Shown here: positions 9,469 through 36,732 of the stretch, in pieces
How positions within the stretch are numbered: position 1 is the stretch's first letter
Layout: every line of letters begins with the position of its first letter
Made by a program: the position numbers and the translations under genes
The notes under the pieces: generated by a model
What the model was told of the DNA's origin: nothing
The model's database searches: none
Seen by the model: only the letters and a program-made list of their open reading frames with translations
Assembly: GCA_937931205.1 (NCBI GenBank)
Contig: CALHBF010000013.1
Location: forward strand, 186,001 to 250,000
Direction: 5' to 3'
Source of the DNA: an uncultured Bacteriovoracaceae bacterium
GTDB lineage: Bacteria > Bdellovibrionota > Bacteriovoracia > Bacteriovoracales > Bacteriovoracaceae
DNA: 64,000 nt

Positions 9469-9723
9469 TTATCCTTGTTGTGATTGCTCATATTTTTGAT
9501 GAGTCATAGTTTGTAATTTTACTGCGTGAATGCGCGCTTTTAATTCTTCTTTAAGAATATCCATCAGCATTTGATGCTGCTCAATTAAAAGCTTTCCTTT
9601 AAAAGCATCACTGACAACAGTGATAGCAAGATGGTCACGAGTACCAGTCATATCTTCGACAAAGACTTTTGCGTCACCAAGCTTCGCCGTAATTAGTTCT
9701 TCGACAAATGTAAATTCACTCAT
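9469..9723 (-). CDS. bolA: BolA/IbaG family protein
   Basis: 84 residues with the compact BolA fold. DHLAITVVSDAFKGKLLIEQHQ carries the conserved FKG and His, and the C-terminal IHAVKLQTMT matches the HAL-x-T strand. BolA proteins form [2Fe-2S]-bridged heterodimers with CGFS glutaredoxins, and grxD is the next gene. The start overlaps the upstream membrane-protein gene by ATGA, indicating tight coupling. Confidence 0.9.
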   Translation of the reverse strand: MSEFTFVEELITAKLGDAKVFVEDMTGTRDHLAITVVSDAFKGKLLIEQHQMLMDILKEELKARIHAVKLQTMTHQKYEQSQQG

Positions 9724-10115: not shown

Positions 10116-10224
10116 AAACGAATTTCTCCTAAAACTGATGAAATGAAACTTAGCATAATTGACGAAATTCTGCCTATTAAATTATGGTAAGCATTCAACA
10201 TGTCACTTCGCATAAAGGCGCCTC

Positions 10225-13993: not shown

Positions 13994-15331
13994 ATGATTA
14001 AAATTAGTAAAGGTTTAGATCTGCCCATTACTGGGGCCCCTGTACAAAAAATCTTCTCAGGACCTGCGATCAAAACTGTTGCTGTAACAGGACAAGATTA
14101 CGTTGGAATGAAACCAACACTACTTGTTCAAGTTGGCGACAAAGTTAAGAAAGGTCAGGCCCTCTTTGAAGACAAAAAAACTCCTGGTGTTATCTTCACT
14201 GCTCCTGCTGCAGGAACTGTGAAAGAAATCAACAGAGGGGAGAAAAGAGCGTTCATCTCTGTTGTAATCAACGTTGAAGGTGATGAACAAGTTTCTTTTG
14301 AAAATTACAAATCAAAAGGAACAAATGTTTCAGCTGAAGAAGCAAAATGCCTTCTTGTTGAATCTGGTCTCTGGTCTGCTCTAAGAACTCGTCCGTTCTC
14401 TAGAACTCCAGCATTAGATGCAAAACCAGCTGCTCTTTTCATTAACGTAATGGACACAAATCCACTAACAGCTAGTCCCGAGTTGATTGTTTCTGGGAAT
14501 CTTGCTGAATTTAAAGCTGGTGTTGCTGTTCTTTCAAAACTAGCTCCTAAAACATACGTAGTTACTCACAGAAATTCTTGTGTTGATGTTAAAGATCTAA
14601 ATGTTAAGCACGAAGTTTTTGCCGGCCCACATCCTGCTGGTAACGTTGGAACTCACATTCACTTCCTAGAGCCAGTTTCTCTTAATAAGTCGGTGTGGCA
14701 TATCGGATACCAGGACGTAATTGCTGTTGGTAAATTATTTACTTCTGGAAAGTTAGACTCTTCAAGAGTTATTGCTATCGGAGGTCCAGCTGCTCGTAAT
14801 CCTCGTCTTGTAACAACAATGAAAGGTGCAAGCATTGCTGAACTTACAAACGGTGAAACTTTAGAGAATTCTAATGTTCGTTTTGTTTCTGGTTCAGTTC
14901 TTGGTGGACGTACAGCTAAAGGTGAGAACGCTTACCTAGGCCCATTCCACAATCAAATTAGCTTACTTAATGAAGGTAACTACAGAGAGTTCATGGGCTG
15001 GCAATCACCAGGTCTTAACAAGTTCTCTGTAAAACCTGTTTTCCTATCGAAACTTTTCCCTGGGAAAAAATTCAACCTTGATACAAATACTAATGGTTCA
15101 CTTCGTTCAATCGTTCCAATCGGTTCATTTGAAAAAGTTATGCCACTAGATATCCTGCCAACTCAGCTTCTTCGCTACCTTATGGTTAAGCACACTGACT
15201 ACGCTGCAAGCCTTGGAGCTTTAGAACTAGATGAAGAAGATCTAGCTCTATGTACATTCGTAGATCCTTGTAAGAATGAGTATGGTCCGGTCTTAAGAGA
15301 AAACCTAAATATCATTGAGAAGGAAGGCTAA
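13994..15331 (+). CDS. nqrA: Na+-translocating NADH:quinone reductase subunit A
   Basis: 445 residues, matching the usual NqrA length (about 446). The start [16 protein letters not shown] and the segment [18 protein letters not shown] are typical of NqrA. NqrA is the peripheral cytoplasmic subunit near the quinone site of the Na+-NQR, which oxidises NADH, reduces quinone and pumps Na+. First gene of the operon; nqrB starts 2 bases after the stop. The C-terminus has two cysteines in [14 protein letters not shown], seen in family members. Confidence 0.95.
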
Positions 15332-15333
15332 TA

Positions 15334-16533
15334 ATGAAATTTTTAGAGCACTTTTTGGACGGTCAAAAGCACCTGTTCGAAAAAGGTGGAAAGCTAGAAA
15401 AGTTGTATCCGCTCTACGAAGCATTGGATACTTTCGCGTTTACACCTGATTCTGTAACTAAATCAAATGCGCACGTAAGAGATTCACTAGATCTTAAGAG
15501 AACAATGATCACGGTTGTTGTTGCTATGATCCCTTGTATCTTTATGGCCCTTTACAACACTGGTTTTCAAGCAAATACAGTTCTTGCTAGCGGAGCGTTC
15601 CAGGCAACTGGATGGAGACACGAGCTTTTCACGTCTCTTGGATTTGCTCATGATCCGGCAAATACACTTGCAAACATCGTTTACGGTCTTATGTTCTTCA
15701 TCCCTGTATGGTTGGTATGTAATATCGTTGGTGGTATTTGGGAGCTTCTTTTTGCTTCTGTAAGAAAACACGAAATCAACGAAGGTTTTCTTGTAACAGG
15801 CTGGCTAATTCCTCTTATCCTTCCTCCTACAATTCCTCTTTGGCAGGTCGCTATCGGAACTTCATTCGGAGTTGTGTTTGCAAAAGAAATTTTCGGCGGA
15901 ACTGGTAAAAACATTTTCAACCCTGCTTTGATGGCACGTGCTTTCCTATTCTTCGCTTACCCTGGTCAAATTTCAGGGGACGCTGTATGGGTTGCCGTAG
16001 ATGGCTTCACTGGAGCGACTGCTCTTTCTCAAGTTGCAGCCTCTGGAATTGGCTCACTTCAAATTTCTTGGTGGGACGCTTTCCTAGGTTTCAAAGCTGG
16101 ATCTATGGGTGAGACTTCTGTACTAGGTGCTCTCATCGGTGCAGCGATCTTAATTGGAACAGGAATTGGCTCTTGGAGAATCATGCTAGGTGGATTAATC
16201 GGTATGGCCGCGACATCTTTCATGTTCAATACTATCGGTTCTGAGACAAATGCTATGTTTGCTCTTGCCCCTCATTGGCATCTAGTGCTTGGTTCATTCG
16301 CTTTTGCTATTGTCTTTATGGCAACTGATCCTGTTTCTGCTTCAATGACTAATGTTGGTCGTTGGATTTACGGGATTTTGATTGGGACGCTCGGAGTACT
16401 TATCCGTGTTGTTAACCCAGCATATCCTGAGGGTTGGATGCTTGCGATTCTATTCATGAATGCATTTGCTCCTACTCTTGATTATTTTGTAATGAAATCA
16501 AATATTCAAAGAAGGAAGGCACGTCATGTCTGA
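15334..16533 (+). CDS. nqrB: Na+-NQR subunit B, covalent-FMN membrane subunit
   Basis: 399 residues with about nine to ten membrane helices. The flavinylation motif [11 protein letters not shown] places the FMN-carrying threonine at 229. The riboflavin/quinone-associated membrane core ([33 protein letters not shown]) is intact. FMN is attached by ApbE, encoded at the end of the same cluster. The C-terminal helix region ([17 protein letters not shown]) matches the Rnf D/NqrB family; length and context decide for NqrB. nqrC overlaps the last 8 bases. Confidence 0.95.
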
Positions 16534-17305
16534 GTCAGCTGGTAAAACACTCACGATTGCGGCAGTTTTATGTGCAGTTTGTTCTGTACTCGTTTCTGGT
16601 GCCGTTGTTATTTTAAAACCACGTCAAGAATTTAATGCTGATCTTGATTTTAAGAAAAATATTTTAATGTCTACAGGCCTTTATTCTCCTGGTGCTGACA
16701 TTAATGAAATTTTCAAAAAAGTTGAACCTGCAGTAGTGGATTTGGATTCAGGAGAAATTACTGATATAGATCCTCGCACTTTTGATTCAGCTAAAGCTTC
16801 TAAAGACAGTATTCCTAGCAACATCGATTCTGCTGGAATTAAACAACGTGCTCGTCAGCAAGTTGTCTATTTCGTAAAGAATGAAGGTAAAGTTGAACTT
16901 ATCGTTCTTCACCTTGTGGGGAAGGGATTATGGTCAACGATGAAAGGATTCCTAACTCTAGAAGCTGATGGTAATACCGTTAGAGGATTTCAATACTACG
17001 CTCACGGGGAAACTCCGGGACTAGGTGGAGAAGTTGATAATCCTGCTTGGATTGCCCAGTGGAAAGGGAAGAAAGTCTTCAATGAAAATCTAAAGCCTGC
17101 CATTGATGTTCTTAAATCAAAGGTACCAGAAGGTATTGCTCATGCTGAAAATAAAATTGACGGTATTTCTGGAGCAACACTAACAATGGTTGGGGTTGAA
17201 GGGACATTTAACTTTTGGCTTTCTGATTTTGGTTACGGAAAATTTCTTGAAAAATTCAGAGCACAAAACCCAGTAGCTCAAGCAGAGGTTTCAAATGAAA
17301 ACTAA
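16526..17305 (+). CDS. nqrC: Na+-NQR subunit C, covalent-FMN periplasmic subunit
   Basis: 259 residues. One N-terminal membrane anchor (about 10-30) and an FMN-binding domain with [15 protein letters not shown] and the ApbE target motif SGATLT (S215-T218, flavin on T218). The family-typical length is about 257. NqrC passes electrons between the membrane FeS/NqrDE site and NqrB. Overlaps nqrB by 8 and nqrD by 11 bases, indicating translational coupling. Confidence 0.95.
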
Positions 17306-17912
17306 AGAACTACTCTTAGATCCTATTGTAAAGAATAACCCAATCGCTCTTCAGGTTCTTGGTATCTGTTCAGCTCTTGCAGTAACAAGCCAACTTAAGC
17401 AAGCGGTTATTATGGGAGTTGCCGTTGCTCTAGTAACTGGTCTTTCTTCTATGATGGTTTCACTTATTAGAAATCAAATCCCGAATTCTATTCGTATTAT
17501 TGTTCAGATGACAGTTGCTGCTTCGGCAGTAATCGTAGCGGACCAAATTCTTAAAGCTTTTGTTTATGATGTTTCAAAACAGATGTCTGTTTATATTGGT
17601 CTTATTATTACTAACTGTATTGTAATGGGACGTATGGAAGGATTTGCGATGAAAAATTCGCCAGTTTCTTCTTTCCTGGACGGTGTTGGTAACGGATTAG
17701 GTTACGCTGTTCTACTTATTTTTGTTGGTGTTATTCGTGAACTATTTGGTTCAGGAAAGCTATTCGGTTTCTCTATCCTTCCTCTAACGACTGAGGGCGG
17801 TTGGTATCAATCTAATGGTCTTCTTCTTCTTCCACCAAGTGCCTTCTTCATTATTGGGCTAATTATTTGGGGTTTAAGAACTTGGAAACCAGATCAAGTT
17901 GAAAAAGAATAA
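17295..17912 (+). CDS. nqrD: Na+-NQR subunit D
   Basis: 205-residue six-helix membrane protein. [24 protein letters not shown] and the conserved [15 protein letters not shown] (with the cysteine that helps bind the intramembrane [2Fe-2S] cluster) identify NqrD, homologous to RnfE. Together with NqrE it forms the inverted-topology pair around the intramembrane iron site. Starts within the end of nqrC; nqrE follows after 9 bases. Confidence 0.95.
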
Positions 17913-17921
17913 GAGGGAATT

Positions 17922-18533
17922 ATGTTTGAAGAATATTTAAGCTTATTTGTAAAATCAGTATTTATTGAAAACATGGCCCTCGCTTTCTTCCTTGGAATGT
18001 GTACGTTCTTAGCACTTTCTAAAAAGGTTGATACGGCGATTGGGCTTGGTATTGCTGTTGTTGTTGTTCAGCTAGTAACTGTTCCTGCAAACAACTTGGT
18101 ATTTAACTATCTGCTAAAGCCAGGAGCTCTTGCATGGGCCGGATTGCCTGATACGGACCTTTCTTTTCTAGGTCTTATTTCATACATCGGTATCATTGCA
18201 GCGATCGTTCAAATTCTTGAAATGGTCCTTGATAAGTATGTACCAAGTCTTTATAACGCTCTCGGGATTTTCCTACCACTTATCACTGTGAACTGCGCAA
18301 TTATGGGCGGATCACTTTTCATGGTGGAGAGAGGCTATAACTTTGGGCAGTCAGTTGTTTATGGTGCTGGTTCTGGTTTCGGTTGGGCCCTTGCTCTTGT
18401 TGCTCTAGCGGGTATTCGTGAGAAGATGGCCTACTCTGATGTTCCAGCTGGCCTAAGAGGTCTAGGAATTACGTTCATTACTGTTGGTCTAATGGCCATC
18501 GTGTTTATGGCATTTGCTGGTATTCAACTTTAA
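17922..18533 (+). CDS. nqrE: Na+-NQR subunit E
   Basis: 203-residue six-helix protein. [27 protein letters not shown] and [18 protein letters not shown] contain the two conserved half-membrane cysteines of NqrE (homolog of RnfA). Paired with NqrD to hold the membrane [2Fe-2S] centre. A ribosome-binding site (GAGGGA) precedes the ATG. Same operon, 9 bases between neighbours on each side. Confidence 0.95.
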
Positions 18534-18542
18534 GGGATCAAT

Positions 18543-19769
18543 ATGAGCGAAATTTTATTATCTGTTGGAATGTTTACTACAGTGATACTTCTTCTTGTTA
18601 CAATCATCTTGATTGCAAGATCAAGACTTGTATCTACTGGTAAAGTAAAAATTAATATTAACGGTGAAAAAGATATCGAAATTCCAGGCGGTGGAAAACT
18701 TCTAACAGCTCTTGCTGCTGAGAAGATCTTTCTTTCTTCTGCTTGCGGTGGTGGTGGAACTTGCGGTCAGTGTAAGACTCACGTTCACTCTGGCGGCGGC
18801 GATATTCTTCCAACTGAGCTTTCTCACATTTCTAAAAGAGAAGCTCGCGAAGGTATGCGTCTAGCTTGTCAGGTAACTTGTAAGCAAGATATGAAAATTG
18901 AAGTACCAGAAGAGGTATTTGGAGTTAAGAAGTGGAAGTGTAAAGTTCGTTCAAATGACAACGTTGCTACTTTCATTAAAGAACTTGTTCTTGAATTACC
19001 GACTGGTGAATCAGTTCCATTCCGTGCTGGTGGTTTCATTCAGATCGAGCGTCCTGCTGGACTTTCAATCGATTTCAAAAACTTCGACGTTCAACCTGAG
19101 TACCGTGAAGATTGGGATAAATTCAATCTTTGGAAGTACAAATCAGTTGAACCTGAAGAAACTGTACGTGCTTACTCCATGGCAAACTACCCTAATGAAA
19201 AGGGTATCATCATGCTTAACGTACGTATTGCAACTCCACATCCGAAAGCCCCTGAGACAACACCTCCAGGTAAAATGTCTTCATACATCTTCAATTTAAA
19301 GAAAGGTGATGAAGTAACAATTTCTGGTCCATTTGGAGAGTTCTTTGCTCGTGATACGAAAAAAGAAATGATCTTCGTTGGTGGTGGTGCTGGTATGGCG
19401 CCGATGCGTTCACACATCTTTGATCAATTCAAGCGTCTAAGAACAGATCGTAAAGTTACTTTCTGGTACGGTGCTCGTTCAGTTCGTGAGATGTTCTACG
19501 TTGAAGATTTTGATTCTATTCAATCTGAATTCCCGAACTTCAAATGGCACTGTGCTCTTTCTGAGCCTCAGCCAAACGATAACTGGAAAGGGTATACTGG
19601 GTTCATTCATAATGTTCTATTTGAACAATACCTGAAGAATCACCCAGCTCCTGAAGATTGTGAGTACTACCTATGTGGACCTCCAATCATGAACCAGTCT
19701 GTTATTAACATGCTTCTCTCACTTGGTGTTGAGAGAGAAGATATCATGCTCGATGACTTCGGCGGTTAA
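18543..19769 (+). CDS. nqrF: Na+-NQR subunit F, NADH-oxidising Fe-S flavoprotein
   Basis: 408 residues, identical in length to the Vibrio protein. One N-terminal membrane helix (about 5-27), then a [2Fe-2S] ferredoxin domain with C68, C74, C77 and C109, then an FAD domain ([13 protein letters not shown]) and an NADH-binding domain ([23 protein letters not shown]). It takes electrons from NADH into the complex. The last codons overlap the preferred start of apbE, and a terminator hairpin begins 12 bases after the stop. Confidence 0.95.
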
Positions 19770-20823
19770 TCTCCTACTTAAAACCCTCTGCTCTGTTTGG
19801 AGCAGAGGGTTTTTTCTTTCTCTTCTCTTTCTCATTTCTGCTTGTTCAGAAAAAGCTCCTACTATTCATACGATTCAAGGTGATATCTTCGGTTCTTACT
19901 ACATTGTGAAGTGGGCAGGGGATACTGATCTAAAAGAGCTTCAGTCAAAAATTGATAAACTGTTTAAAGAAATGAATGACGAGTTTTCAAATTATCAAAA
20001 CGACTCAGTCGTAAGTCGTTTTAATAATCTTAAGGCCCATCAAAAAATGAAAGTTTCTCCGCGCTTTATCGAGATGCTGGAGTTTTGCAAAAAACTTCAC
20101 CAGGACAGCCGAGGAGCTTTTGATCCGACTTTAAGACCAGTCATTAAGCTATGGGGATTTGGCGGTGGTGCTAAGAAAGTATCTATTGCCCCAACTAATG
20201 AAGAAATTAAATTAGCACTGACTAAAGTTGGTTTTAGAAATGTTCTTTGGGACAAAGAAAAACTAGAAGTTTGGAAAATTGTTGATGATGTTGGTATTGA
20301 TACCAATGCTTTTGTTCCAGGCTGGGCAGCAGATTTAATCGGTGAAATCCTTCAGCAACAAAAAATTGAAAATTTCATGATCGATATTTCAGGCGAGCTT
20401 TTAGTTAAGGGGCAGAAGTCTCCTGCAAGTGCTTGGGTCATTGGAATTGAAAAACCAGTAAAAGAAAAAGGAGCGGCAATCCAGGTCGCTTTAAAAATAC
20501 GAGATTTGTCGATTGCCACATCAGGAAATTATCGCCAGTTTTTTGAAGAGAATGGTCTGAGAAGATCTCATATTATTGATCCAAGAACAGGTCGTCCGGT
20601 AGAACATCAGATTGCTTCAGCGACAGTTATCGGCAAAACTGCTCTTGAAACAGATGCTTGGGGGACCGCCCTTATGGTTTTAGGTCTTGAAGGAATTCAG
20701 ATTGCAGATCAGCAACAGCTTAAAGTAATGCTACTAGAGGCCATTGCACCTGGTGAGTATCGTGAAGTCTCTAACAAGCTGATGAAAGAGTATGTTAAAG
20801 ATAATCAAGTCTCTCTTGAGTAA
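19753..20823 (+). CDS. apbE: ApbE-type FAD:protein FMN transferase, lipoprotein
   Basis: Transfers FMN onto threonines of NqrB and NqrC. Motifs: [68 protein letters not shown] and [12 protein letters not shown]. The only reasonable start is ATG 19753, inside the end of nqrF, because it gives a complete lipoprotein signal peptide of about 31 residues ([16 protein letters not shown] ... LFLISAC). In-frame starts after the terminator hairpin would delete the lipobox. The hairpin at 19781-19812 is therefore translated. Coupled translation from nqrF probably helps ribosomes enter. The domain itself is complete. Confidence 0.9.
19781..19815 (+). terminator. Perfect intrinsic terminator inside the apbE signal-peptide codons
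   Basis: A 13-bp perfect stem (19781-19793 with 19800-19812, loop TGTTTG) ends in six consecutive T followed by CTTTC. It starts 12 bases after the nqrF stop but lies within codons 10-21 of apbE. It probably lowers apbE transcription relative to nqrA-F, possibly depending on translation. Confidence 0.85.
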
Positions 20824-26550: not shown

Positions 26551-29346
26551 ATGTATTCAAGACGTTTAGACATTCTTCTGGGAGTGATAGGGCTATTTTT
26601 AGTAGTTGCCGGCTTTTATCAGTTATATCTTCCCAAAGATAGTTCGGGCGGTGTTGGTATCGGCCTGTTAGAGATGATCGAGAATACTGTCAAAACTCGT
26701 GATGGCAGCCATTTATTTTGGGTTACTCCCGGTCAGGGAAGTGCTGTAAAGGATAATCAGCTTATTTTCACCGCGAGAGGCTCTCGCGCCAGAATTGATA
26801 TGAATGACGGAAATATTATTCAGGTCAATGAAAGTAGTCTTATCAAAGTAAAAAAGACTAACCTCGAGTTTATCGAAGGTGAGGTTTCGGCCAAGCTCGC
26901 AGGTAAAGATCTAGAGATTCACACCAAAGGAAAAACAATTACCTTAAAGTCAGCAGATGCTGAGGTCTCTCTTTATCAGACAGGTGAGAATACGATTATC
27001 GGAGTCAACGCAGGGAATGTAGATATTCTTGATGGGGATAAGACGATTACTGCTAACTCGGAGAAGTTGGTAGAAGTTCAGAATAAAGAACTGGTGCTAA
27101 AGAATAAATTAGCGATTGATCCGATTCCTTTGACCCATAAGATTTTTTATACTCCAAACAACACGGCCGATATTCAGTTTGGAAAATATGAAGGAAAAAT
27201 CTTATTATCAACTGATCCGTCCTTTGAGAAAACTCAATCACTAGACCAGAACCCGGTATCATTGAAGGTAGGAAAGTATTATTGGAGAGCAAAAGCTGAT
27301 AATGCTGAGTCATTAGTTTTTCAATTCGAAATTCAGAATGTAGTTCCTCCAAAAATATTTAGACCTCAGGATGGAGTCGTTTTTCATAAAGAAATTCCAT
27401 TCTCTCTTAATCTTCAATGGGAAGATCAGAAGCTTCCTGAACTGCTTCAACTGAAATTTCAGGATGAAATTTTTGATTTTAAAGTTGATTCAGGTCTTCA
27501 TTCATTGAATGTAGAAAAAGCAGGCCTCTATCAATGGAGAGTAGGAACTCTTATTGAAGAGAAGCAGGAAGCAGTTTGGTCGCAATGGTCAACGTTTGAT
27601 GTGGTTGATTTAGCGTCAGCGGTTCCAGCAAATCTCACTCCTGTTCATTATGAGGTACAAACTTATGAATTGGGTGAGGAGAAGGTCGAGTTTAAATGGA
27701 GTTATCCGCAGGAAGTGATTCTTTCTGTATGGAAAGATGGGAAAGTTATTTTTCAAGAGAAGGCCCGTAATAAATTTGAATGGAAGATTCCTTCAGAGGG
27801 TGAATTTATTGTTAAGGTCAAAGATGCTCTGAATCCTCTCGATGTTTGGAGCAATCCTTCAGCTATTTCTGTTACTGATCTGTCCCAGCAAAAGAATATC
27901 GAAATTCAGAAAATTGAATTAAAACGTCCTGATCAGGAAGTTCATTTTAATTGGCAGGGCAGCGGAGAGGAGTATCTTTTTGAACTTTCTCAAACTCAGA
28001 GCTTTCAGCAAATTATTCTTAGTCGGAAAGTAAAAGATCATCAGACCAAAGTCAGTATTCCTAAAGTAGGGGATTATTACTGGAGAAGCCGAACACTTGT
28101 TAACGGTAAGTGGAAAGTTTCTGAACCTAAGAAGGTCATCATTCAACCGGTGCCTGCACCAGAGAGACCAAAGCCATTACCAGAATTAAAAGTACCCTTG
28201 AGAATTAAAGGGGTTCGTTCAGTCTTTAGTGTTTTCTCAAATGCCTATGCCGAAAGTCGTGGATTTGTGAAAATTAATCTTCCGACCTATGAGGATGCGA
28301 AATCTTATCGATTAGAAATATTTCAAGACCAAGGGATGAATAAAAAAGTTTATCAAAAAATTTCCACCAGTCCTGAATTTGTATGGGAAGAGGCCAGTGC
28401 AGGGACGTTTTACTATCGCTATTCCATTATTGATCACTGGGACAGAGAGAGTGAGCCAAGTGAGGCATCTGTCTTGCAAGTTACGACTGAACATTTAACG
28501 CCGAAGGCCCCAACTCAGATCAATATTCTTGAAAATGCAAAAGAGTTGAAGGTTTCTTGGAAAATAGATCGTTTATCCGCTTTTACTGAAGTGGAGATTG
28601 CTGATAATTCTCAATTCAAGAATTCCTCGATTGTTCGAGTTTCAGAGGATCACTATTCATTTAAGAAAAAAGAGGGAGCGAACTTTGTTCGTTTAAGATC
28701 TCTCAATGATTTTGGAAAGAGCCGTTGGAAAACAAAAGACTATCAGGTCAAAGCAATTAGTTCCGGAGAAGTTAAAAAAACAAATGAGAATAAGATTTTT
28801 TTCATCTATCGTCCTTCACAAGATAAGCTCACTTTTCAGGATGGGCAGAAGGGGGAGATCGACGGAACAAATTTTGCGGCAGTTCAAATGAAATACGAAG
28901 GACAAGGCCGTTTACTTAAAGTTTTGAATGCCGATTTTTCATCAGGAAAAGTTTTTGATAATGAAAGTTATCGTCATTACTCTTTAGAAGGAAGCTTGGT
29001 TTATCTAATAAAGAATGAGAAGTGGAACTGGGGAGCAGGTCCCATGGTTAAGCTTTGGCAGATGCCGCAATATAAGGTGGCGACGAAGGTTCAAAGTGAA
29101 GAAAAGCTTAATACTTCTCTCGGTCTGCATGGCAGAGTTATGAGACAATTTGGCAATGATCATGAATTGGGAATTGATCAGTATGTCTATGCTCTTGATG
29201 TGAGTGGTTTTATGAGTGAGTTAACTTATCGACAGCATTTAAAATCATTGAGTCTCATTTCGGGATTGGGATTTGAAAGCATTAAAGTCCAAGATCAAAA
29301 ACGTAATTCCATTATTTTGAAGTTAGGAATTGGAATTTCTTTCTAA
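26551..29346 (+). CDS. FecR-domain envelope protein with Fn3-like repeats
   Basis: 931 residues. Uncleaved or long signal anchor (about 8-26), then a FecR-like beta domain (about 60-170: LIFTARGSRARIDMNDGNIIQVNESSLIKV, LEFIEGEVSAKL, GVNAGNVDIL). The middle contains at least four repeated blocks ending in aromatic strands (YYWRAKADNA, YQWRVGTL, YYWRSRTLVNGKW, FYYRYSIIDHWDRESEPSEA), the pattern of Fn3/Ig-like repeats. The last 200 residues are strand-rich (SLVYLIKNEKWNWGAGPMVKLW) and may form a membrane-associated beta domain. Similar FecR proteins occur in delta-proteobacteria and Leptospira. Overlaps the convergent gene by 35 bases. Role unknown, probably structural or adhesive. Confidence 0.65.
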   Translation: MYSRRLDILLGVIGLFLVVAGFYQLYLPKDSSGGVGIGLLEMIENTVKTRDGSHLFWVTPGQGSAVKDNQLIFTARGSRARIDMNDGNIIQVNESSLIKVKKTNLEFIEGEVSAKLAGKDLEIHTKGKTITLKSADAEVSLYQTGENTIIGVNAGNVDILDGDKTITANSEKLVEVQNKELVLKNKLAIDPIPLTHKIFYTPNNTADIQFGKYEGKILLSTDPSFEKTQSLDQNPVSLKVGKYYWRAKADNAESLVFQFEIQNVVPPKIFRPQDGVVFHKEIPFSLNLQWEDQKLPELLQLKFQDEIFDFKVDSGLHSLNVEKAGLYQWRVGTLIEEKQEAVWSQWSTFDVVDLASAVPANLTPVHYEVQTYELGEEKVEFKWSYPQEVILSVWKDGKVIFQEKARNKFEWKIPSEGEFIVKVKDALNPLDVWSNPSAISVTDLSQQKNIEIQKIELKRPDQEVHFNWQGSGEEYLFELSQTQSFQQIILSRKVKDHQTKVSIPKVGDYYWRSRTLVNGKWKVSEPKKVIIQPVPAPERPKPLPELKVPLRIKGVRSVFSVFSNAYAESRGFVKINLPTYEDAKSYRLEIFQDQGMNKKVYQKISTSPEFVWEEASAGTFYYRYSIIDHWDRESEPSEASVLQVTTEHLTPKAPTQINILENAKELKVSWKIDRLSAFTEVEIADNSQFKNSSIVRVSEDHYSFKKKEGANFVRLRSLNDFGKSRWKTKDYQVKAISSGEVKKTNENKIFFIYRPSQDKLTFQDGQKGEIDGTNFAAVQMKYEGQGRLLKVLNADFSSGKVFDNESYRHYSLEGSLVYLIKNEKWNWGAGPMVKLWQMPQYKVATKVQSEEKLNTSLGLHGRVMRQFGNDHELGIDQYVYALDVSGFMSELTYRQHLKSLSLISGLGFESIKVQDQKRNSIILKLGIGISF

Positions 29347-30319
29347 AATTAATAAGCATTAAAGCAAACATCGGGATGAGTACTTGCAGAAGGAAGTTCT
29401 CATTTTCTTTTTTATTTTCAGCAACGATACCACAGCTGATATTAGAGCGGAGATCCGCACCTTTATTAGGAGCTTTGAAACCGATAATATCTTTATCCCC
29501 TTCGGGAGTTTTGAGTCGAATGAGTCCCGCTGAACCTGCTCCGGCCATTGCTTTGTCGGTCGATGAGCCTCCGCTGCCTCCAATGACAGAGAGTGTTCCC
29601 TGAATATCGAGAATATTACCTTGGAGAATAATCACGCCGCCTGAGCCACCAGCTGCACCGCCGTTTTTGTTGTTTGAATTTGCACCCTGAGCGCCGTTAG
29701 CGTAAATTGCCCCCGTTACTGTCAGTGTAATTTTCCCTTGTGATTGAATGTAGATAGCACCGCCTCCACCGCCACCTGTTGGAATTGGTAGTTCTGTTCC
29801 GCCACCGGCACCTCCGCCAAATCCTCCGCGCAAATTTGATTCGATATTTGTCAGATCAAAGGCATCTCCGCCGTTAACTGAGGGTTGGGTAGATGAGGTG
29901 CAAGGAGTTCCCTTTTTTCCAACGGTATAAAAACCGCCGCCACTTGCTCCATCTCCACAACCGGCACTTGCATCAAAGCCTCCTTTAAGTCCGCCATGGG
30001 GAGCATCTGGAGCGTCTGTTCCTTCTAGAAAGAAAACACCGCCGCCTGCACTTGCTCCTGGACCGCCAGCTCCACCAATTCCGTCTGCAGACAGAAGGCT
30101 ACCTTTAGCACCAGAAAGTTTTATAGCAGCTTTGATGAGTACATCATTTTGAACATTGATGATGATGGGATTTGTGATGCTACTGAGGTCCACATCTTGA
30201 GTGATCGAAAGGCTATCACAGTTAAGTGGGTAGCTGGCCGTGAGCAACGTTTGTCCATCACAGGTTTGTGATAAAACCTCAGCCGATAAAAAGAGTAGGG
30301 GAAGAAAGAAAAACCTCAT
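29312..30319 (-). CDS. Glycine-rich surface protein with C-terminal membrane tail
   Basis: 335 residues: signal peptide (MRFFFLPLLFLSAEVLS), short N-terminal domain with TCDGQTL and NCDSL, then about 200 residues very rich in Gly/Ala/Ser (GGAGGPGASAGGG, GGGGGGAIYIQ, GGSGGSS) interspersed with strands typical of right-handed beta-solenoids. The C-terminus has SCGIVAENKKENEN, a hydrophobic helix (LLQVLIPMFALMLIN) and FRKKF, which is the tripartite layout of a protein-sorting tail. Only 40 bases separate it from the collagen-like gene upstream, so the two are probably co-transcribed. Function unknown; extracellular matrix or adhesion is inference. Confidence 0.6.
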   Translation of the reverse strand: MRFFFLPLLFLSAEVLSQTCDGQTLLTASYPLNCDSLSITQDVDLSSITNPIIINVQNDVLIKAAIKLSGAKGSLLSADGIGGAGGPGASAGGGVFFLEGTDAPDAPHGGLKGGFDASAGCGDGASGGGFYTVGKKGTPCTSSTQPSVNGGDAFDLTNIESNLRGGFGGGAGGGTELPIPTGGGGGGAIYIQSQGKITLTVTGAIYANGAQGANSNNKNGGAAGGSGGVIILQGNILDIQGTLSVIGGSGGSSTDKAMAGAGSAGLIRLKTPEGDKDIIGFKAPNKGADLRSNISCGIVAENKKENENFLLQVLIPMFALMLINFRKKFQFLTSK

Positions 30320-30359
30320 AGGACAAGTGTAAACCTCATCCTATGAGCTGATCAAATGA

Positions 30360-31958
30360 TTATTCTTTTTTAATGATTTTCATCTGAGTGTAGATTTCAA
30401 TTGTTCCAAAACTCACCGGAAGACCAAAACCTAGATTAGGTTTGGCACTTCCACAACGATGTTGAATTGAGAAAGTTGAGTTCTGATTGACAGTAATTTC
30501 ACCCTGAATAGTAGAGTGGTTTGTTATCCCATAACTTGGATGAGCGGCCATCGATGTTCCGAAGAGCACATCTGAGCCATTATTTTCTAAAACGAGTTTT
30601 GCTTGGTGATAGCCCACCATATATCCTGGAACTTGTACTTCGATAAAATATTTTCCCGGAGTCAGCGTAAAGCGTGAATCAGCGAGTGAAATAAAATCAG
30701 TGTCCCCACCAAGTCTATTTAAATCTCTTTGCTGCCATCCAGTTGCATTACAAGATCCTCCAGTTGTACCAGATGGTTTTTCGTCACGAAGATAAGCAAT
30801 CTTGCTAAGACCTGCTTCTCCTTTTTCACCCTTTTCTCCTTTATCACCTTTCGGTCCAGCCGCTCCCGCTTCCCCAGGAAGACCTTGTAGACCCATTGGC
30901 CCTGTTTCTCCCTGTGGACCAGTTGCTCCTGGTAAACCTGGTAATCCCATCGGACCTGCATCTCCTCTAGGTCCTTGAGCACCTGTTGCTCCTATTTCTC
31001 CACGAGGACCCTGTGGACCTTGAGGTCCAGTTGGACCTGCTTCACCCTTTATTCCTTGTGGTCCCTGCGGTCCAGTTGCACCAACTTCTCCTCTGGCACC
31101 CTGTGGGCCTATAAGTCCTTGCGGACCTTGTGGGCCAATTGGTCCAATCGCTCCGATATCACCTTTGAGTCCTTGCGGACCAATAGCTCCGGCATCACCT
31201 TTCGGACCTTGTGCTCCAGCAACACCAGCTTCGCCTTTATCGCCTTTAGGCCCTTGAGGTCCTGCTGCTCCTGCTTCACCTTTTGGGCCTGCAATTCCGG
31301 CAGTCCCAGCTTCACCTTTATCACCCTTCGGACCTTGAGGTCCCATTGGCCCCATTTCTCCTTGAGGACCCATTGGTCCTTCTACAGTTTCTCCTGAACC
31401 TGATCCAGGATTTTGTGGAAGATTTTCTGGAACCCAAGCTTCACCGTTGAACATCAGTACTTGTCCAGGTTCTGCTTGTAGATAAGGTAGAACTAATCCG
31501 TATTCAGATTGGTTTTTTTCTAAAACTTTGATTACTGCTCGAATGGTGGCCTTTGCACTTTGGGAAGAGTGAAGAGTAAGTTTGATGCTTGAATTGACAT
31601 GAATCTCTTCTCCAGCACGTGTTCCATCTGAACAATCGGACAATTTAAAAACAGTCGCCGTTAATTTAACAGAGCTATAAGTACATCTGATGGAGTCATC
31701 AATCAGAAGTTCAGCAGAGTTTGATCCTAAAAAAATATTACCTTGAGTAAGTGTAATGAGTGCCGGTACTTCGATCACACCATTGAAGCTCAACTGTTTA
31801 GGAGTAAGTACTTTTTGCGGTTTCATTTGAACTGAAGCTTCAAGGCTGAGGTGAGTTGATTTCCCAGACTTTTCTAATTTCTTAAAAAGCTCTTTGAAAA
31901 TATTGGCTTCTGCATGAGTTAAGGTCAGTAGCAATCCAGTGCCGATTAAAAACTTCAT
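30360..31958 (-). CDS. Secreted collagen-like protein with C1q/TNF-like head
   Basis: 532 residues. Signal peptide ([18 protein letters not shown]), a beta-rich N-terminal domain to about 180 ending with [11 protein letters not shown] (a motif that often precedes collagen stretches in phage and bacterial fibres), then from about 194 to 385 about 64 uninterrupted Gly-X-Y triplets ([18 protein letters not shown]). The last 147 residues ([52 protein letters not shown]) resemble the jelly-roll trimerisation heads of C1q/TNF type. Likely a trimeric surface fibre. Prolines in position X and charged GDK/GEK triplets favour a stable triple helix. Confidence 0.85.
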
Positions 31959-32193: not shown

Positions 32194-32283
32194 TGGTGCC
32201 CAGGACGAGACTCGAACTCGTACGGCCGGTTTAGGGTCCGAGGGATTTTAAATCCCTTGTGTCTACCATTCCACCACCCGGGC
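32194..32283 (-). tRNA. tRNA-Leu (anticodon UAA)
   Basis: On the minus strand the 5' acceptor GCCCGGG pairs with CCTGGGC (one G-T pair). The discriminator is A and CCA is encoded (complement of 32194-32196). The anticodon arm is AGGGA-TTTAAAA-TCCCT with anticodon TAA. A long variable arm (class II tRNA) is followed by a T-arm with GTTCGAGTC. All parts fit tRNA-Leu reading UUA/UUG. Confidence 0.95.
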
Positions 32284-32301
32284 ATAAGAAAAGTAGAGAT
32301 G

Positions 32302-32330
32302 ATGATGTTATGTTCATGAGATTCTGTCAA
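32302..32330 (-). promoter_or_regulatory. Promoter of tRNA-Leu, inside the divergent lipoprotein gene
   Basis: TTGACA (complement of 32325-32330), 17-base spacer, CATCAT (complement of 32302-32307). Transcription would begin about 12 bases before the tRNA. The -35 lies in the first codons of the plus-strand lipoprotein gene. Confidence 0.55.
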
Positions 32331-33767
32331 TTGAAAACCCTCATATTAGTGGGACTACTGTTAAATAGTTGCTCTCTCCGTAAGAAAACGGAAGTGGAAG
32401 CAGGGGCTACTCCTGAGGCTAAATGGTTTTCAGCGAATCAAGAGCATGCACTTGAAGATAAGAGTGGAGCTAAAAAACATTTATTTTTTGACCCAGCTTC
32501 AACTATCAATTGGTCAGAGGGAACTATCAAGTTTGTTGCTCTCACTCCTGCCGATTCTAAGCTCAGCTATATGCTGGATCTCGCTTCAGGCCAACCTCTA
32601 GCAAAGCATGAATACTGTGAACAAAAAGATATCTTTGGGGACTATGGTGGAAAGGTAAACAGACCTCCTTATGTTCAAGGTTTTATTCCTAAAGTTCTTG
32701 ATCAGATGGGAGAGCCACAGAAGATTATTTATTTTTCACAGAATAAAAAACTAAATGCTTTTGAGCAGTATGAGGCGCAGATTGTTGCTGGGTATGTTGA
32801 AAGCTTTTGTCCAGTGATGGATTGTCCAGAAGGACAGTGGATTTCTCGCCTGGTGCTTGTAGGTGTAGACCCAGCTGAAAGTGATCTTTATGATTTTAAG
32901 ATATCTAAGATTCAAGAGCTGCTTCAGTGGCCGAAAGTTAAGGCCCATCTCGAAAATGCTGAGGGAAAAAACTTTATCGGCAATAACTCTTATCCGCGCT
33001 GGAAGGCAGGAGAATTGATTACTTTCAATGAGAGTAAAAAATATTTTAGAAAGAGGGCCAAGTTTTTTAAAGGCGAGGAACTTTTAAGCATTCGTAAGAG
33101 CTGTCATCTTCTCTATGATAAGTTATGGAAAGATGTGGGCGAGATGAGGATAGAGGACTCTGCTGCTCAGACTGCAGATGAGATGACCAGAAAACTTGAA
33201 GTCATTAACCTACTAAAGGCGAATGGAAATCCTATCGGTTTCAACAGGAGATTTGAAAAGTTCAGTCAGGAACACTACAAAGATATGCTGACGTGTTCAA
33301 AATTTGTTTATACCGGAAATGTTAACTATGATCAGGATAAATTCTGGTTTTTAAGTTTTATAAAAGCGTTTTACCTCTTAAATCAACAGGGCTACTATTA
33401 TGACTGTTCACATAACAGTTGGAGAAGGAATCTTCTCGATGCGAAAGGTAACTATCTCTACTCGGTAAACGATACCTTGAGAGAGTGTAGTAACGAGCAG
33501 ATTGATCTGGCCATGAACTATATGACAAACTTCATACGTTCAGAAAAAGAGAAAACTTCCCAATTTTTAAGATTTATTGACTATGACAACCAAGGAATTG
33601 GCAGTCATGAGAAAATTTATAACTGGGTGATGTTTCCGCATACACGACTTTCTTGTACTAGCAAAAAGAACGAAGAATTTTTAAAGAAAGTGGATGTCTT
33701 TGTTGACGATATTAAGTGGAAAAAAAGATCAGTCGGCAAAGATAAAGATGAAAGAGTGATTTATTAA
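32310..33767 (+). CDS. Lipoprotein of unknown function, first gene of the NuoCD-like operon
   Basis: 485 residues with a lipoprotein signal (MRFCQLKTLILVGLLLNSC, lipobox LLNSC). ATG 32310 (or 32316) is chosen; an upstream in-frame ATG would start inside the tRNA gene. The mature protein is rich in aromatic and charged residues and has more than ten cysteines (KHEYCEQ, ESFCPVMDCPEG, RKSCHLLY, LTCSKF, YYDCSHNSW, RECSNEQ, RLSCTSK) but no CxxCH heme site. No family is recognised. The stop is immediately followed by the ATG of the next gene, so it is part of the operon with the complex-I-like proteins. A redox-linked envelope role is speculation from context. Confidence 0.65.
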   Translation: MFMRFCQLKTLILVGLLLNSCSLRKKTEVEAGATPEAKWFSANQEHALEDKSGAKKHLFFDPASTINWSEGTIKFVALTPADSKLSYMLDLASGQPLAKHEYCEQKDIFGDYGGKVNRPPYVQGFIPKVLDQMGEPQKIIYFSQNKKLNAFEQYEAQIVAGYVESFCPVMDCPEGQWISRLVLVGVDPAESDLYDFKISKIQELLQWPKVKAHLENAEGKNFIGNNSYPRWKAGELITFNESKKYFRKRAKFFKGEELLSIRKSCHLLYDKLWKDVGEMRIEDSAAQTADEMTRKLEVINLLKANGNPIGFNRRFEKFSQEHYKDMLTCSKFVYTGNVNYDQDKFWFLSFIKAFYLLNQQGYYYDCSHNSWRRNLLDAKGNYLYSVNDTLRECSNEQIDLAMNYMTNFIRSEKEKTSQFLRFIDYDNQGIGSHEKIYNWVMFPHTRLSCTSKKNEEFLKKVDVFVDDIKWKKRSVGKDKDERVIY

Positions 33768-34148
33768 ATGAAAGAATTAAAAATATTTGTTGTGGCCAAT
33801 CCTGCAACTCAAAATGAATGGGCCGTTCTGAGAAGTACCAAGTATCAGAACGCGATGGATTTCAGTTGGAGTTTCACCTCAGACCTTGAGGACGCGAATA
33901 TTTTTATTTGGGATGGTCTTTCAAATAAAGTTTCTCGTAAATCATTTGAAAAGTTGGAAAAGAAAATCGCAACAGAAGGTCATCTCTTGCTATGGGTAAG
34001 ACCAATCGACTTCTTTGAAAGTTTCAAAACAACTTCAGGCCTTGATCTTGATCAAATTCGTTATGTCGAAGTTTTCCAGACTGGATTAAATCCCCAACGA
34101 ATGATTTCATCTCTTACAGAATGTAAAAAGAAGCTTATCGATGTTTGA
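33768..34148 (+). CDS. Small protein in the place of NuoB, without Fe-S cysteines
   Basis: 126 residues, alpha/beta type. The segment DLEDANIFIWDGLSNKVSRKSFEKLEKKIATEGHLLLWVRP recalls, by pattern only, the NuoB/PSST core where an Asp-rich helix and a strand are followed by a small-residue turn and a long helix. The NuoB cysteines for cluster N2 are absent; only one Cys occurs, near the end. It has no gap to the lipoprotein gene and overlaps the NuoCD-like gene by 8 bases. The homology is a guess guided by position; it may be an unrelated partner protein. Confidence 0.55.
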   Translation: MKELKIFVVANPATQNEWAVLRSTKYQNAMDFSWSFTSDLEDANIFIWDGLSNKVSRKSFEKLEKKIATEGHLLLWVRPIDFFESFKTTSGLDLDQIRYVEVFQTGLNPQRMISSLTECKKKLIDV

Positions 34149-35748
34149 TTTAAATTCCTTTCAAAAAGAAAATCAGCGTTTATCTATTGTTAAAGATAAG
34201 TATTATTCTTGGTTGGATGAGCACCATATCACTTGCCGTCCACAAGAAGTTATTTCTTGGGTAAGAGTTTTAAAAGAAGACTTAAACTATCTTTATTTTA
34301 TTGATGCTTATGTTTTGAATGCTCCGAATGGCGGTCAGTTTGATTACGAATTAAATTTCATCGTAGCAAACTTAGAATCGCACCAAAGATTAAATCTTCA
34401 TATTTTGTTCAATCAATCGGAAGTTGTTCCAGATATCACTCCTTATTATCCGGCTTCTCGTTTTTCTTTACGTGAGCAGGCAGAACTTTTCCAGATAAAC
34501 TTCCAAGTAAAACCTGAACCAATCTTTTTCTCTCAAGAGACGGATGGTCTTTTCAGAGATGGAGGAAGTATTCAAAAAAATCCTTTGGATTTTAAAGAAC
34601 CAGTTCTTCCTTTCAATCCCAATAAGTCTGAGGCTCCATATCCTCAGGAGAGCTGGCGATGGAAACACTGTGATCTTTTTTCAAAAGATACTCTCGGAAA
34701 ATTTGAGGCTTTCTATTGTTTTGATCCCTTTAAGTTGGTGGATCTCAAACTTAATTTAGGGAATTTTTTTAGAGGGGTAGAGTCACTTCTTACTCAAAAA
34801 AATCATTCTCATATCCCATATCTTCTTGAAGATCTTAATCATATGGCCTCACCTTTTTATTCTGGTGCGTGGGCCATGAATTTAGAAGAAGTTCTCAAGT
34901 TGCAGATTACCGAAAGGGCCCAAGGATTACGAATTGTTGTTTGGGAGTTATCTCGAATTGCAGAACATCTTTTTGTTATTTATGAAATGTGTTCACTTCT
35001 TAAACTAGTGCATGCCCAAGCATTCTTAGATGCTTATGAAAGATTGTGTGAATTGATGGAGCAACTGACTGGTAATCGTTCAGGAAAAGGAATGATTAAA
35101 ATCGGTGGACTTCATCGTGATCTACCTTCTGGATGGATAGTTGAATTTATCGAATTTAATAAACTGCTTCTTAAAAATCTGAGTGTTTATCATAAAGACC
35201 TTTTAGGAGATGGAACTTTCAGGACCTTGTTGAATCACGCCAAAGTGAATTCTCATGCTGTTCTTGAAGGCGGAGTGAGCGGTCCTGCTCTAAGAGCTGC
35301 TGGTATCAACTTTGATTTAAGAAAATCAAGACCACTTTATTTTTATCCAGAAATTGATTTTGATGTCCCAGTAGGAGTTCATGGAACTTCTTATGACAGA
35401 TATCTTATTCGTTTCGAGGAAATTATTCAGAGTTCTCGAATCATCACTCAGGTGCTGGACAATTTACCTTTAGGGGTAGTCGATCTTAATCTTAATGAGC
35501 ATGAAATTAGAGAGCAGCTAAAATCAGTCGGGGAGCACACTCATTATAGCGCTCTTGAATCTCCTAACGGGGAAGTAGGGATTAGCTACGTGCAAGGAAC
35601 CGATGCACTGATCAAGAGAATTAAAATTAAATCTCCAAGTCAGGCCTTAACTCAAAGTCTAAAAGAATTTTTGAAAGGCGCTGATGAAAACTCAGTACCT
35701 GTTGCTCTTTCGAGTTTAGGTATTAGAGAAAAAGAGATGGAGCGATAA
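34141..35748 (+). CDS. Fused NuoC-NuoD-like protein (complex I 30/49 kDa-like)
   Basis: 535 residues. N-terminal NuoC-like part (about 40-125): YLYFIDAYVLNAPN, DYELNFIVANL and VVPDITPYYPASRFSLREQAELFQINF, which follows the NuoC signature of VPS-x-T, A-x-W and ERE-x-x-D-x-FGI. The NuoD-like part includes LGNFFRGVESLL, ERAQGLRIVVWELSRIAEHLF, GGLHRDLPSGW, GVSGPALRAAGINFDLRKSRP, DFDVPVGVHGTSYDRYLIR and SRIITQVLDNLPLG, which are very close to NuoD. The HP-x-x-HG loop that lines the quinone site in NuoD is missing, and there are no hydrogenase-type CxxC pairs. The fusion is known in some complexes I. No membrane-arm genes are nearby, and the window also encodes complete Na+-NQR. Confidence 0.8.
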   Translation: MFDLNSFQKENQRLSIVKDKYYSWLDEHHITCRPQEVISWVRVLKEDLNYLYFIDAYVLNAPNGGQFDYELNFIVANLESHQRLNLHILFNQSEVVPDITPYYPASRFSLREQAELFQINFQVKPEPIFFSQETDGLFRDGGSIQKNPLDFKEPVLPFNPNKSEAPYPQESWRWKHCDLFSKDTLGKFEAFYCFDPFKLVDLKLNLGNFFRGVESLLTQKNHSHIPYLLEDLNHMASPFYSGAWAMNLEEVLKLQITERAQGLRIVVWELSRIAEHLFVIYEMCSLLKLVHAQAFLDAYERLCELMEQLTGNRSGKGMIKIGGLHRDLPSGWIVEFIEFNKLLLKNLSVYHKDLLGDGTFRTLLNHAKVNSHAVLEGGVSGPALRAAGINFDLRKSRPLYFYPEIDFDVPVGVHGTSYDRYLIRFEEIIQSSRIITQVLDNLPLGVVDLNLNEHEIREQLKSVGEHTHYSALESPNGEVGISYVQGTDALIKRIKIKSPSQALTQSLKEFLKGADENSVPVALSSLGIREKEMER

Positions 35749-36104
35749 TGATTTTAAATAGAGAGTCTTATTTAAGAGCATCCTTTTTCCGCAGATACTG
35801 GCTAAGACGTCAAGCGGCCAAGCTTCGTCTTCAGTCACCTTTTTATCAAGCAGGAATGTTTCAATTAAGTGAAAAAACAACGCTGGTACCAGAGTTTACC
35901 GCTTCTGCGAAAGATCTGGCCGAGTTCGCTGATGCTAAAAAACTAGAAAGAATTTGTCCTACTTCCGCTCTTACAGTAACTACTCAGAAGATTGAGATCA
36001 AAGAAAAGAATTGTATCGGCTGTATGGAATGTGTGAAAGCTAGCCCTGAAAATTTTTTTCGAATTAAGGATGAAAAATTTCCTGACGTTCCTGATACCAA
36101 TTAA
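35748..36104 (+). CDS. Ferredoxin-like protein with one [4Fe-4S] site
   Basis: 118 residues. Basic N-terminal region (RRYWLRRQAAKLR), then ERICPTSALTV and KNCIGCMECVKASPENF. Four cysteines (CP plus CxxCxxC) can hold a single [4Fe-4S] cluster; the second cluster of NuoI/HyfH-type proteins is missing. The ATG overlaps the last base of the NuoCD-like stop. It would pass electrons to or from the NuoCD-like protein. The end overlaps the convergent aat gene by 41 bases. Confidence 0.75.
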   Translation: MILNRESYLRASFFRRYWLRRQAAKLRLQSPFYQAGMFQLSEKTTLVPEFTASAKDLAEFADAKKLERICPTSALTVTTQKIEIKEKNCIGCMECVKASPENFFRIKDEKFPDVPDTN

Positions 36105-36732
36105 GATTTTTGATCTTCTCGATAAAATATTCTCTGGGAATATATTTACCGCCAAAAAGCTCCACCACACTGGTGATCATCTGAGTATCAAGGAATGGAA
36201 TGCCTTTTGATTTAAGAAGTAGGCAAAGAGAATAAAGAGCAAATTTCGAAGCGCCATCCTCTTTCATAAACATCGATTCTCCAGAAACAAACTGCCCCAT
36301 TGAGACTCCATAAAGTCCGCCCACTAATTCTTTTTTTTCATTCCAAACTTCAACCGAATAGGCGAGTTTGTGATGGAAAAGGTCAATATAGGCCGCTTCC
36401 AATTCTTCCAGAATCCACGTGGTTCTCTGACCTTTTCTTTTTATCTTACTGCAATTATGAATGACCGATTCAAAGTCAGTGTTAAACGTTACGGTGAAGG
36501 GACAAGTTTTTAAAAACTTTTTAAAAGAACGTGGCAGATGAAAGTCTGAGAGTTCAATGATGCCTCTTGGGTCCGGGGAGAACCAGACATGAGGGTATTT
36601 TTTTGAGATGGGCCAGGGGAAGATTCCTTGGGAATAAGCACTCATGAGCATATCAACTTTGAAATCTCCTCCGACAGCTACAATGCCATCAGGATCGGCG
36701 CTATCTACCGGAGGAAAATTGATTTCTCTCAT
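36064..36732 (-). CDS. aat: Leucyl/phenylalanyl-tRNA-protein transferase
   Basis: 222 residues. FPPVDSADPDGIVAVGGD, AYSQGIFPWP, WFSPDPRGIIEL, the GGLYGVSMGQFVSGESMF block and LDTQMITSVVELFGGKYIPREYF are diagnostic of Aat. The enzyme adds Leu or Phe from aminoacyl-tRNA to N-terminal Lys/Arg of proteins, marking them for ClpS/ClpAP. It overlaps the upstream ureohydrolase gene by 4 bases, so it is in an operon with it and with the dehydrogenase. Normal length. Confidence 0.95.
   Translation of the reverse strand: MREINFPPVDSADPDGIVAVGGDFKVDMLMSAYSQGIFPWPISKKYPHVWFSPDPRGIIELSDFHLPRSFKKFLKTCPFTVTFNTDFESVIHNCSKIKRKGQRTTWILEELEAAYIDLFHHKLAYSVEVWNEKKELVGGLYGVSMGQFVSGESMFMKEDGASKFALYSLCLLLKSKGIPFLDTQMITSVVELFGGKYIPREYFIEKIKNLNWYQERQEIFHP

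Follow-up and report, generated by a model that had tools for sequence, protein, structure and literature searches.

Probable remains of a second complex I in Bacteriovoracaceae suggest a dead enzyme complex kept under selection for another job

Complex I is usually regarded as something that is either kept whole or lost. NuoB, NuoCD and NuoI, the Q-module of respiratory complex I (NDH-1), make contact with NuoH and NuoA, and a two-cluster NuoI carries two CxxCxxCxxxCP motifs. There are also 11-subunit complex I-like enzymes without NuoEFG, for example in Desulfitobacterium (PMC11238625), and Group 4 [NiFe] hydrogenases and their relatives (HyfG, HycE) have a NuoCD-type large subunit. Here we describe four genes, W1 to W4, of an uncultured Bacteriovoracaceae bacterium related to predatory bacteria; the genes lie in a window of 64,000 nucleotides (positions 186001-250000 of contig 13 of genome G000, an assembly of 3.08 Mb that is 86% complete), and our comparison suggests that they are the selected-for remains of a second complex I, a dead enzyme complex kept for another job. 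Like the Q-module of NDH-1, the module W2-W3-W4 has homologous NuoB, NuoCD and NuoI in the same gene order, but it has no E, F and G, no N2 cysteines and no quinone histidine loop, its NuoI has one cluster, and there is no membrane arm in the genus of the window. The lack of an NADH module is shared with the 11-subunit enzymes, and the other complex I of the same genome has their composition, but those enzymes keep membrane subunits and the module does not; from the hydrogenases, it differs by lacking both the CxxC metal-site pairs and membrane subunits. Among the titles and abstract openings listed for the literature on respiration in Bacteriovorax, Halobacteriovorax and Bdellovibrio and on non-catalytic complex I (subscription papers and preprints lay outside the search), none describes the module, and in a survey of complex I across prokaryotes (PMC12361115) the word Bdellovibrio does not occur.

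The initial annotation, made from the sequence alone, had seen a cut-down complex I-like module, and this is borne out by the homologies of its three proteins and by their missing catalytic sites. W3 indeed is a NuoC-NuoD fusion, with Pfam/NCBIfam matches to Complex1_49kDa (7.7e-44) and Complex1_30kDa (8.9e-7) and with NuoCD chains of the structure database matching at ~1e-32. HPxxHG, the second histidine of which presumably binds the quinone, is absent from W3 as had been noted, and the other NuoD of the genome has HPATHG. Formate hydrogenlyase subunit 5 also matches W3, at 2.8e-13, and for the homologue in genome G015, too, the HyfG match is poorer than the one to NuoCD; a hydrogenase-like or energy-converting reading is rejected for this better NuoCD match together with the missing CxxC pairs, none of which was seen by eye in W3, in agreement with the earlier reading. 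In this case the label NADH dehydrogenase is probably a misnomer for such NuoCD proteins. The module is no chance occurrence: of 26 examined genomes of the genus, 24 match W3 at E <= 1e-120, while in G007 a contig end leaves a CD fragment and G018 has none.

W2 was described as a protein in the position of NuoB without its cysteines, and this has held. Pfam and NCBIfam have no model for it at E <= 1. A profile of W2 and nine relatives aligns over 125 columns with a profile of 16 NuoB sequences (14 from the same locus in relatives, one from Escherichia coli and one from a 14-gene operon) with an E value of 5e-10 and a probability of 96.6, and a PDB profile search with W2 gives NuoB/NdhK in all of its top six matches, which are weak (E 0.002-0.036). 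Fold matches of the predicted structure (pLDDT 79.3) comprise complex I NuoB chains as well as response regulators, none at E <0.001, and rows 1 and 3 of that fold search are chain O of a mycobacterial complex I, not its NuoB, which is chain B. By its profile, W2 is a NuoB homologue, and it has 0/4 of the cysteines that ligate N2. W4 matches 4Fe-4S models and is a NuoI homologue that keeps the CP of motif I and the CxxCxxC of motif II, i.e. the four ligands of one [4Fe-4S] cluster, as expected of the predicted one-site ferredoxin; by the usual ligand numbering, this cluster would be N6b. The other ligand set is broken, stray cysteines apart. The same single set is present in the window and in 14 relatives, namely 13 of 15 loci of the genus, those with a NuoI that was read, and the locus L033. 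No 4Fe-4S motif is found in the NuoI of L034, L046 and L070, and those of L046 and L070, which read like zinc ribbons, argue for a structural role.

It had been considered that a full nuo set elsewhere might supply the other subunits. A separate 11-subunit complex I does exist in this genome, with nuoB, C, D and I on contig 15, where the cysteines of NuoB and NuoI are in place, and nuoA, H, J, K, L, M and N on contig 19, but it is complete without the module, so that the module does not represent its missing subunits and, judged by gene content, is an extra paralogue. The one NuoH match of the genome lies in the arm on contig 19, and a second membrane arm was not found by these searches, which are blind to a strongly degenerate arm; in agreement with the initial annotation, no membrane-arm gene follows W4. 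NuoF (PF10589) has no match in this genome, and E, F and G are absent from the operon, NuoE and NuoG not having been searched for genome-wide. Also the Na+-NQR mentioned there is encoded, by six open reading frames (ORFs) at about 14000-19770 of the window, and the two that were tested match NQR2/RnfD and an NqrF-like domain set. The nuoN gene of contig 19 is followed by a gene for a tetratricopeptide repeat protein. At L060 (3304-6495), the tetratricopeptide repeat protein behind nuoN has ~1060 aa, and many related genomes have an ORF of about this size after nuoN or after the degenerate arm. A NuoL-like protein encoded on contig 1 (L059, 8817-12922) is ruled out as a part of complex I by its neighbour DabA (PF10070, 8e-159), with which it forms a DabAB-type inorganic-carbon transporter.

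What had been overlooked is that the module stands late in a graded reduction, many steps of which can be seen at a single locus among living relatives, from a full NADH-linked peripheral arm to two or three subunits without known redox sites. Reading of 58 further W1 or CD loci from 58 genomes showed the same syntenic locus through all stages: W1-B-CD-E-F-G-I in full; E, F, G and the quinone histidine lost or degenerate; N2 lost; NuoI reduced; W1-CD; and W1 only. The locus, with its divergent tRNA-Leu and the order W1-B-CD-...-I, is orthologous across the family. E, F and G are full in 7 of the 58 loci, all of which have HPATHG, four NuoB cysteines and two NuoI motifs. CD without complete E, F and G is found in 46 loci, three of which (L068, L069, L092) have a degenerate F and/or G, and HPxxHG occurs in 0/46; L048 shows HPELNG to a loose pattern, which is not HPxxHG, and in the early reduced loci L123 (HPITKG) and L124 (HPATQG) only the second histidine is lost. 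As to NuoB in these 46 loci, 16 have the four cysteines and one has three, 10 outside the genus have none or one, four have CD without NuoB, and the remaining 15 belong to the genus of the window, where all 13 NuoB read lack the ligand cysteines (NuoB of L081 and L113, like NuoI of L082 and L130, was not recovered by the start-codon rule). No CD is present in 5/58 loci, among them L115, which is a contig end and not counted as a loss; in L096, L101, L118 and L119, an HMM search found no B, CD or I. The ligands of N6a, N6b and N2 are kept without E, F, G or HPxxHG in L108, L109 and L090, and the pair W1-CD survives the loss of B and I in L116, L117 and L120 and, with a NuoI stub, in L110. W1 also persists alone, and B and CD are kept without W1 in at least one locus (L073, genome G050).

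In a tree of W1 with 55 rows, in which deep forks are partly unresolved and some branches long, making counts of origins rough, the state of the window forms one clade (16 rows, 100/99), and there are two changes for the full E-F-G state (6 rows), three for a NuoB without its cysteines together with a two-cluster NuoI, and four for W1 only, a count that wrongly has L115 among its five rows. As far as this tree can be read, the losses are repeated across lineages. At the place of the module, L118 (genome G043) has a gene between W1 and aat (9186-10331) whose product, by its motif, reads like a fatty-acid desaturase. In L075 (G085, another family of the phylum; 1651-3733), a full nuoB-CD-E-F-G-I is immediately followed by a second, diverged NuoB with its cysteines kept, a 343-aa NuoD-like protein and a NuoI-like protein, and this possibly is an independent second case.

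Equally overlooked was a matching degenerate membrane arm at another locus in relatives. In G039 and G055, which have the full module, an intact second nuoAHJKLMN directly follows the first (in G055 up to the contig end). G045, in which E, F and G are gone, has a recognisable second set that has lost pump residues (NuoA D79Q/E81Q, NuoK E72H, NuoL K229N/K399W, NuoM E407T, NuoH E157 lost), the original residues all being kept in G039, and it retains NuoH E216, NuoM K234 and NuoN K395, among others; positions are in E. coli numbering, the letters having been checked in the alignment. Degenerate ORF series are found in G057, G027, G032, G035, G041, G030, G058, G048, G059, G046, G037 and G038, with the order A, H, J, K, L, M, N and transmembrane (TM) helix counts as expected, mostly shorter proteins and, in G046, no called K ORF. 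When G057, G059 and G027 are aligned, most key residues are gone and NuoN K395 aligns in all three, the alignments being unsure. Seven intact membrane ORFs stand in G032 and G098 at 20-29% identity.

The profile evidence for this arm is uneven. Ten of its proteins were compared with Pfam: NADHdh is matched by H* of G057 (3e-28), Proton_antipo_M by N* of G059 (1e-8), and nothing relevant by the other eight. Among 90 degenerate proteins compared with canonical profiles, nine match at E < 1e-3; in eight cases the profile is that of the protein's own position (one A, two H, one K, one M and three N), whereas the protein in the J slot of G046 hits NuoN. At E <= 10, 54 proteins have a hit, but the best one falls on the own position in only 15, and most of the 90 have no match there. 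Eight of 34 control membrane proteins match at E < 0.05, and these are the seven genes of a real nuo operon and a DabB-like protein. Pooled profiles find the own position for H (1.9e-7), N (1.1e-4) and J (1.1e-3, probability 20), with no match of note for A, K, L and M; pairwise blastp connected few of the proteins, and PDB sequence searches with L* and M* of G059 gave nothing. Because so few profile matches fall at the own position, most identities in the arm rest on order, length and TM count. The arm and the module co-occur, by gene content, at two unlinked loci outside the genus: from 33 arm loci listed, four were dropped (G033 and G009 without a strong nuoN on the stretch, G053 cut right after nuoN, G049 with a different nuoN copy), and the arm is found with the module in 17 genomes (the arm of G029 is partial, G050, G052 and G055 are truncated by contig ends, and G037 has only CD), without the module in one (G038, 66% complete), neither in four, and the module without the arm in none (Fisher p 7e-4). 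Within the genus, six genomes have the module without the arm and one has neither, and with the genus included p is 0.018; as the genomes are related, neither value is a strict probability.

The first gene of the operon encodes the cysteine-rich lipoprotein that had been predicted, as its lipobox Cys21 and eight more cysteines are invariant in 31/31 sequences, signal peptide and lipobox having been recognised by eye. By its signal peptide, W1 is probably exported; the Nuo proteins of the module, unlike W1, show no signal peptide. That W1 has the fold of a pyrophosphatase had been missed. No Pfam or NCBIfam model matches it at E <= 1, and its predicted structure (pLDDT 86.8) has 112 PDB matches in Foldseek at E <= 0.001 (best E 2.7e-8, probability 1.00, target TM-score up to 0.77), the 50 best of which are inorganic pyrophosphatases, one being titled inorganic phosphatase. 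By sequence, PDB profiles give two hits at E <= 10, both pyrophosphatases (E 0.31 and 2), and hhalign of W1 against two aligned pyrophosphatases, from this genome and from E. coli, gives E values of 1.5e-7 locally and 6.7e-9 globally. W1 shares the core fold of family I inorganic pyrophosphatases (Ppa) and aligns with their FFD, GxIP and GxP segments, but it is a lipoprotein with eight extra conserved cysteines and an extra helical region, and the metal site DGDPxD is replaced: W1 reads LDQMGEPQKI there, with MGEPQK in place of the motif, and among 19 aligned W1 the aspartate positions of the motif are not conserved as aspartate. Judged by the model and the DGDPxD site, W1 is a pseudo-pyrophosphatase, a family I fold with its metal site gone. 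It is found in 52 of 98 genomes, namely in 52/60 of the family and 0/38 outside, and most of the named relatives found through it, at 33 loci, carry the label Bacteriovoracaceae, Halobacteriovorax or Bacteriovorax, some having broader labels.

Selection still acts on most of the remains of the module. In the closest and least saturated pair of the genus, L081/L083, the dN/dS ratio is 0.05 for W1, 0.07 for CD and 0.10 for I, values that indicate purifying selection on these three. For CD it is 0.19-0.40 in further pairs, in which dS is saturated, and 0.3-0.4 in pairs with the window (the B* and CD pairs come from 13 of 24 loci, with one strand read), and for the degenerate membrane arm 0.35-0.62 where finite.

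Taken together, W2-W3-W4 would represent NuoB*-NuoCD*-NuoI*, remnants of the soluble arm from a second complex I in the Bacteriovoracales, one that was linked to NADH. The comparison supports an ancestral locus W1-nuoB-CD-E-F-G-I that would have had a second nuoAHJKLMN elsewhere as its partner. The quinone loop HPxxHG is gone in every locus read in which E, F and G are lost or degenerate, and N2, the NuoI clusters and the membrane arm appear to have been lost later, in several lineages and in varying order, the arm being gone in this genus. In the cytoplasm, the three proteins may still assemble into a small B*-CD*-I* complex based on the NuoCD fold and one [4Fe-4S] cluster, which would no longer pass electrons to quinone nor pump ions and would be kept as a non-catalytic scaffold or regulator. 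W1 shares the operon yet persists without nuo genes; the shared operon, together with the W1-CD pairs that outlive B and I, suggests a link between W1 and the complex, possibly a direct partnership. It is probable, in our estimate, that a paralogous complex I has turned into a non-redox, probably structural complex. The wider version, which we hold only tentatively and doubt slightly more than we believe, is that a whole paralogous complex I has become a pseudo-enzyme, which in many genera of the family consists of B*-CD*-I* with a fast-evolving seven-subunit arm, devoid of NADH entry, quinone loop and most pump residues, and in this genus of the soluble core, and which selection keeps, along with the dead pyrophosphatase lipoprotein, for a function in the envelope or as a scaffold that is not bioenergetic. 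Several points weigh against this interpretation. The complex and its role are deduced from the genes; one complete ligand set of W4 is kept across the genus, which would be odd if the redox role were gone; selection on B* is weaker, with dN/dS of 0.19-0.62 in the closest pairs and 0.62 in two pairs with the window; the order of losses is read across lineages and is not strict, L092 having lost N2 yet keeping an F-like remnant; and in the arm, sequence support covers A, H, K, M and N in few genomes, with J weak and L identified by position and TM count.

The initial annotation had proposed a different job, either new electron transfer or a non-catalytic assembly, and of these the non-catalytic assembly is now the likeliest, while electron transfer is less supported, as N2, N6a and the quinone histidine are lost and no 4Fe-4S motif is left in the NuoI of L046 and L070. 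A rewired electron carrier, in which the W4 cluster exchanges electrons with some donor and acceptor and NuoCD and NuoB serve as scaffold, would fit the four ligands kept in 13 loci of the genus, in L033 and in the window, the NuoI dN/dS of the one pair above, and the earlier stages L108, L109 and L090, whose ligands make an electron-transfer intermediate plausible; it is nevertheless unlikely, given the loss of N2 and of the quinone site, the module of L046 and L070 with its motif-free NuoI, and an operon without an obvious redox partner gene. Quite improbable is that the module serves as a decoy in the assembly or regulation of the 11-subunit complex I that remains. NuoB, CD and I being the subunits that contact the membrane arm speaks for it, and NuoH is matched in 87 of the 98 genomes searched, including most of those with the module, but G034 (96% complete) has the module without any match to NuoH or to another NuoD, which makes a general dependence on the remaining complex I unlikely from genome content, and the degenerate membrane arm of the relatives suggests that the module had a membrane partner of its own. 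To plain pseudogene decay of an obsolete operon we give just as little credence, the dN/dS values of B* making it slightly more likely than it would be without them. Stepwise losses, repeated complete losses (L096, L101, L118, L119), fast divergence and the high ratios of the arm and of B* with the window would agree with decay, but nearly all of the loci have intact ORFs, dN/dS is low for W1, CD and I in L081/L083, one cluster-ligand set is kept exactly, and G032 and G098 have all seven membrane ORFs intact despite their divergence. With many steps visible at one locus and selection still acting on most of the remains, two questions become testable: the order in which a 14-subunit machine can be taken apart, and the ability of its scaffold to adopt a function other than redox.

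Table 1. Features at the module locus, in positions of the window
Feature	Positions	Strand	Basis and remarks
tRNA-Leu (TAA)	32194..32283	-	ARAGORN; divergent, constant upstream neighbour of the locus
TTGACA, -35-like box of tRNA-Leu	32325..32330	-	within the signal-peptide codons of W1
W1, lipoprotein with pyrophosphatase fold	32310..33767	+	Foldseek, hhalign, model; lipobox by eye
Pyrophosphatase-like domain of W1, residues ~56-253	32475..33068	+	hhalign
W2, NuoB homologue, N2-ligand Cys 0/4	33768..34148	+	profile comparison, PDB profile search
W3, NuoC-NuoD fusion, HPxxHG absent	34141..35748	+	Pfam, NCBIfam and PDB matches
W4, NuoI homologue, one ligand set	35748..36104	+	4Fe-4S model matches, motif reading
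Leucyl/phenylalanyl-tRNA transferase (aat)	36064..36732	-	downstream boundary of the locus; named from its sequence

The four tightly packed ORFs were confirmed with the position and spacing first given for them (a 0-base gap between W1 and W2, overlaps of 8 bases between W2 and W3 and of 1 base between W3 and W4). An aat homologue lies 3' of W1 or of the module in most loci printed from the neighbourhood comparison, and on the side away from the tRNA most of these have aat, arginase-like and dehydrogenase-like genes. In the window, W4 is not followed by the 360-aa gene of unknown family that comes after it in many other genomes of the genus (L040, 11913-12995). Upstream of the module, relatives in the genus have a further nuoA-N operon (L063, L064 and L065 on one contig each, and L041 with L040 in G015), which in G015 comes after an ORF series resembling Na+-NQR genes; the window has no nuoA-N operon between its Na+-NQR genes and the module. 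Plasmid and phage searches gave only distant matches (<60% identity); among the matches listed, those with an annotation are nuo genes of the ordinary kind or subunits of NADH dehydrogenase. Further 5' of the tRNA (26551-31958), the window encodes a 931-aa protein with a FecR domain and a 532-aa collagen-repeat protein.

The tRNA-Leu (TAA) gene adjoins W1 in 37/37 related loci scanned, from 35 different genomes (L096 and L114 are one place, as are L110 and L121). In the tRNA-W1 regions, with the window counted, TTGACA is exact in 31/37 and TTGAC in 36/37 (L096 and L114 again being the same place), compared with TTGACA in 76 of 7400 random 110-nt windows. The -10 boxes of the tRNA gene are weak, and the spacing to the tRNA is variable; the box probably is the -35 element of the tRNA-Leu promoter, embedded in the coding sequence of W1. 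In positions 32284-32400 of the window and in 36 related loci, a conserved CQ of the W1 signal peptide overlaps this opposite-strand TTGACA, and the overlap would explain the conservation of CQ.

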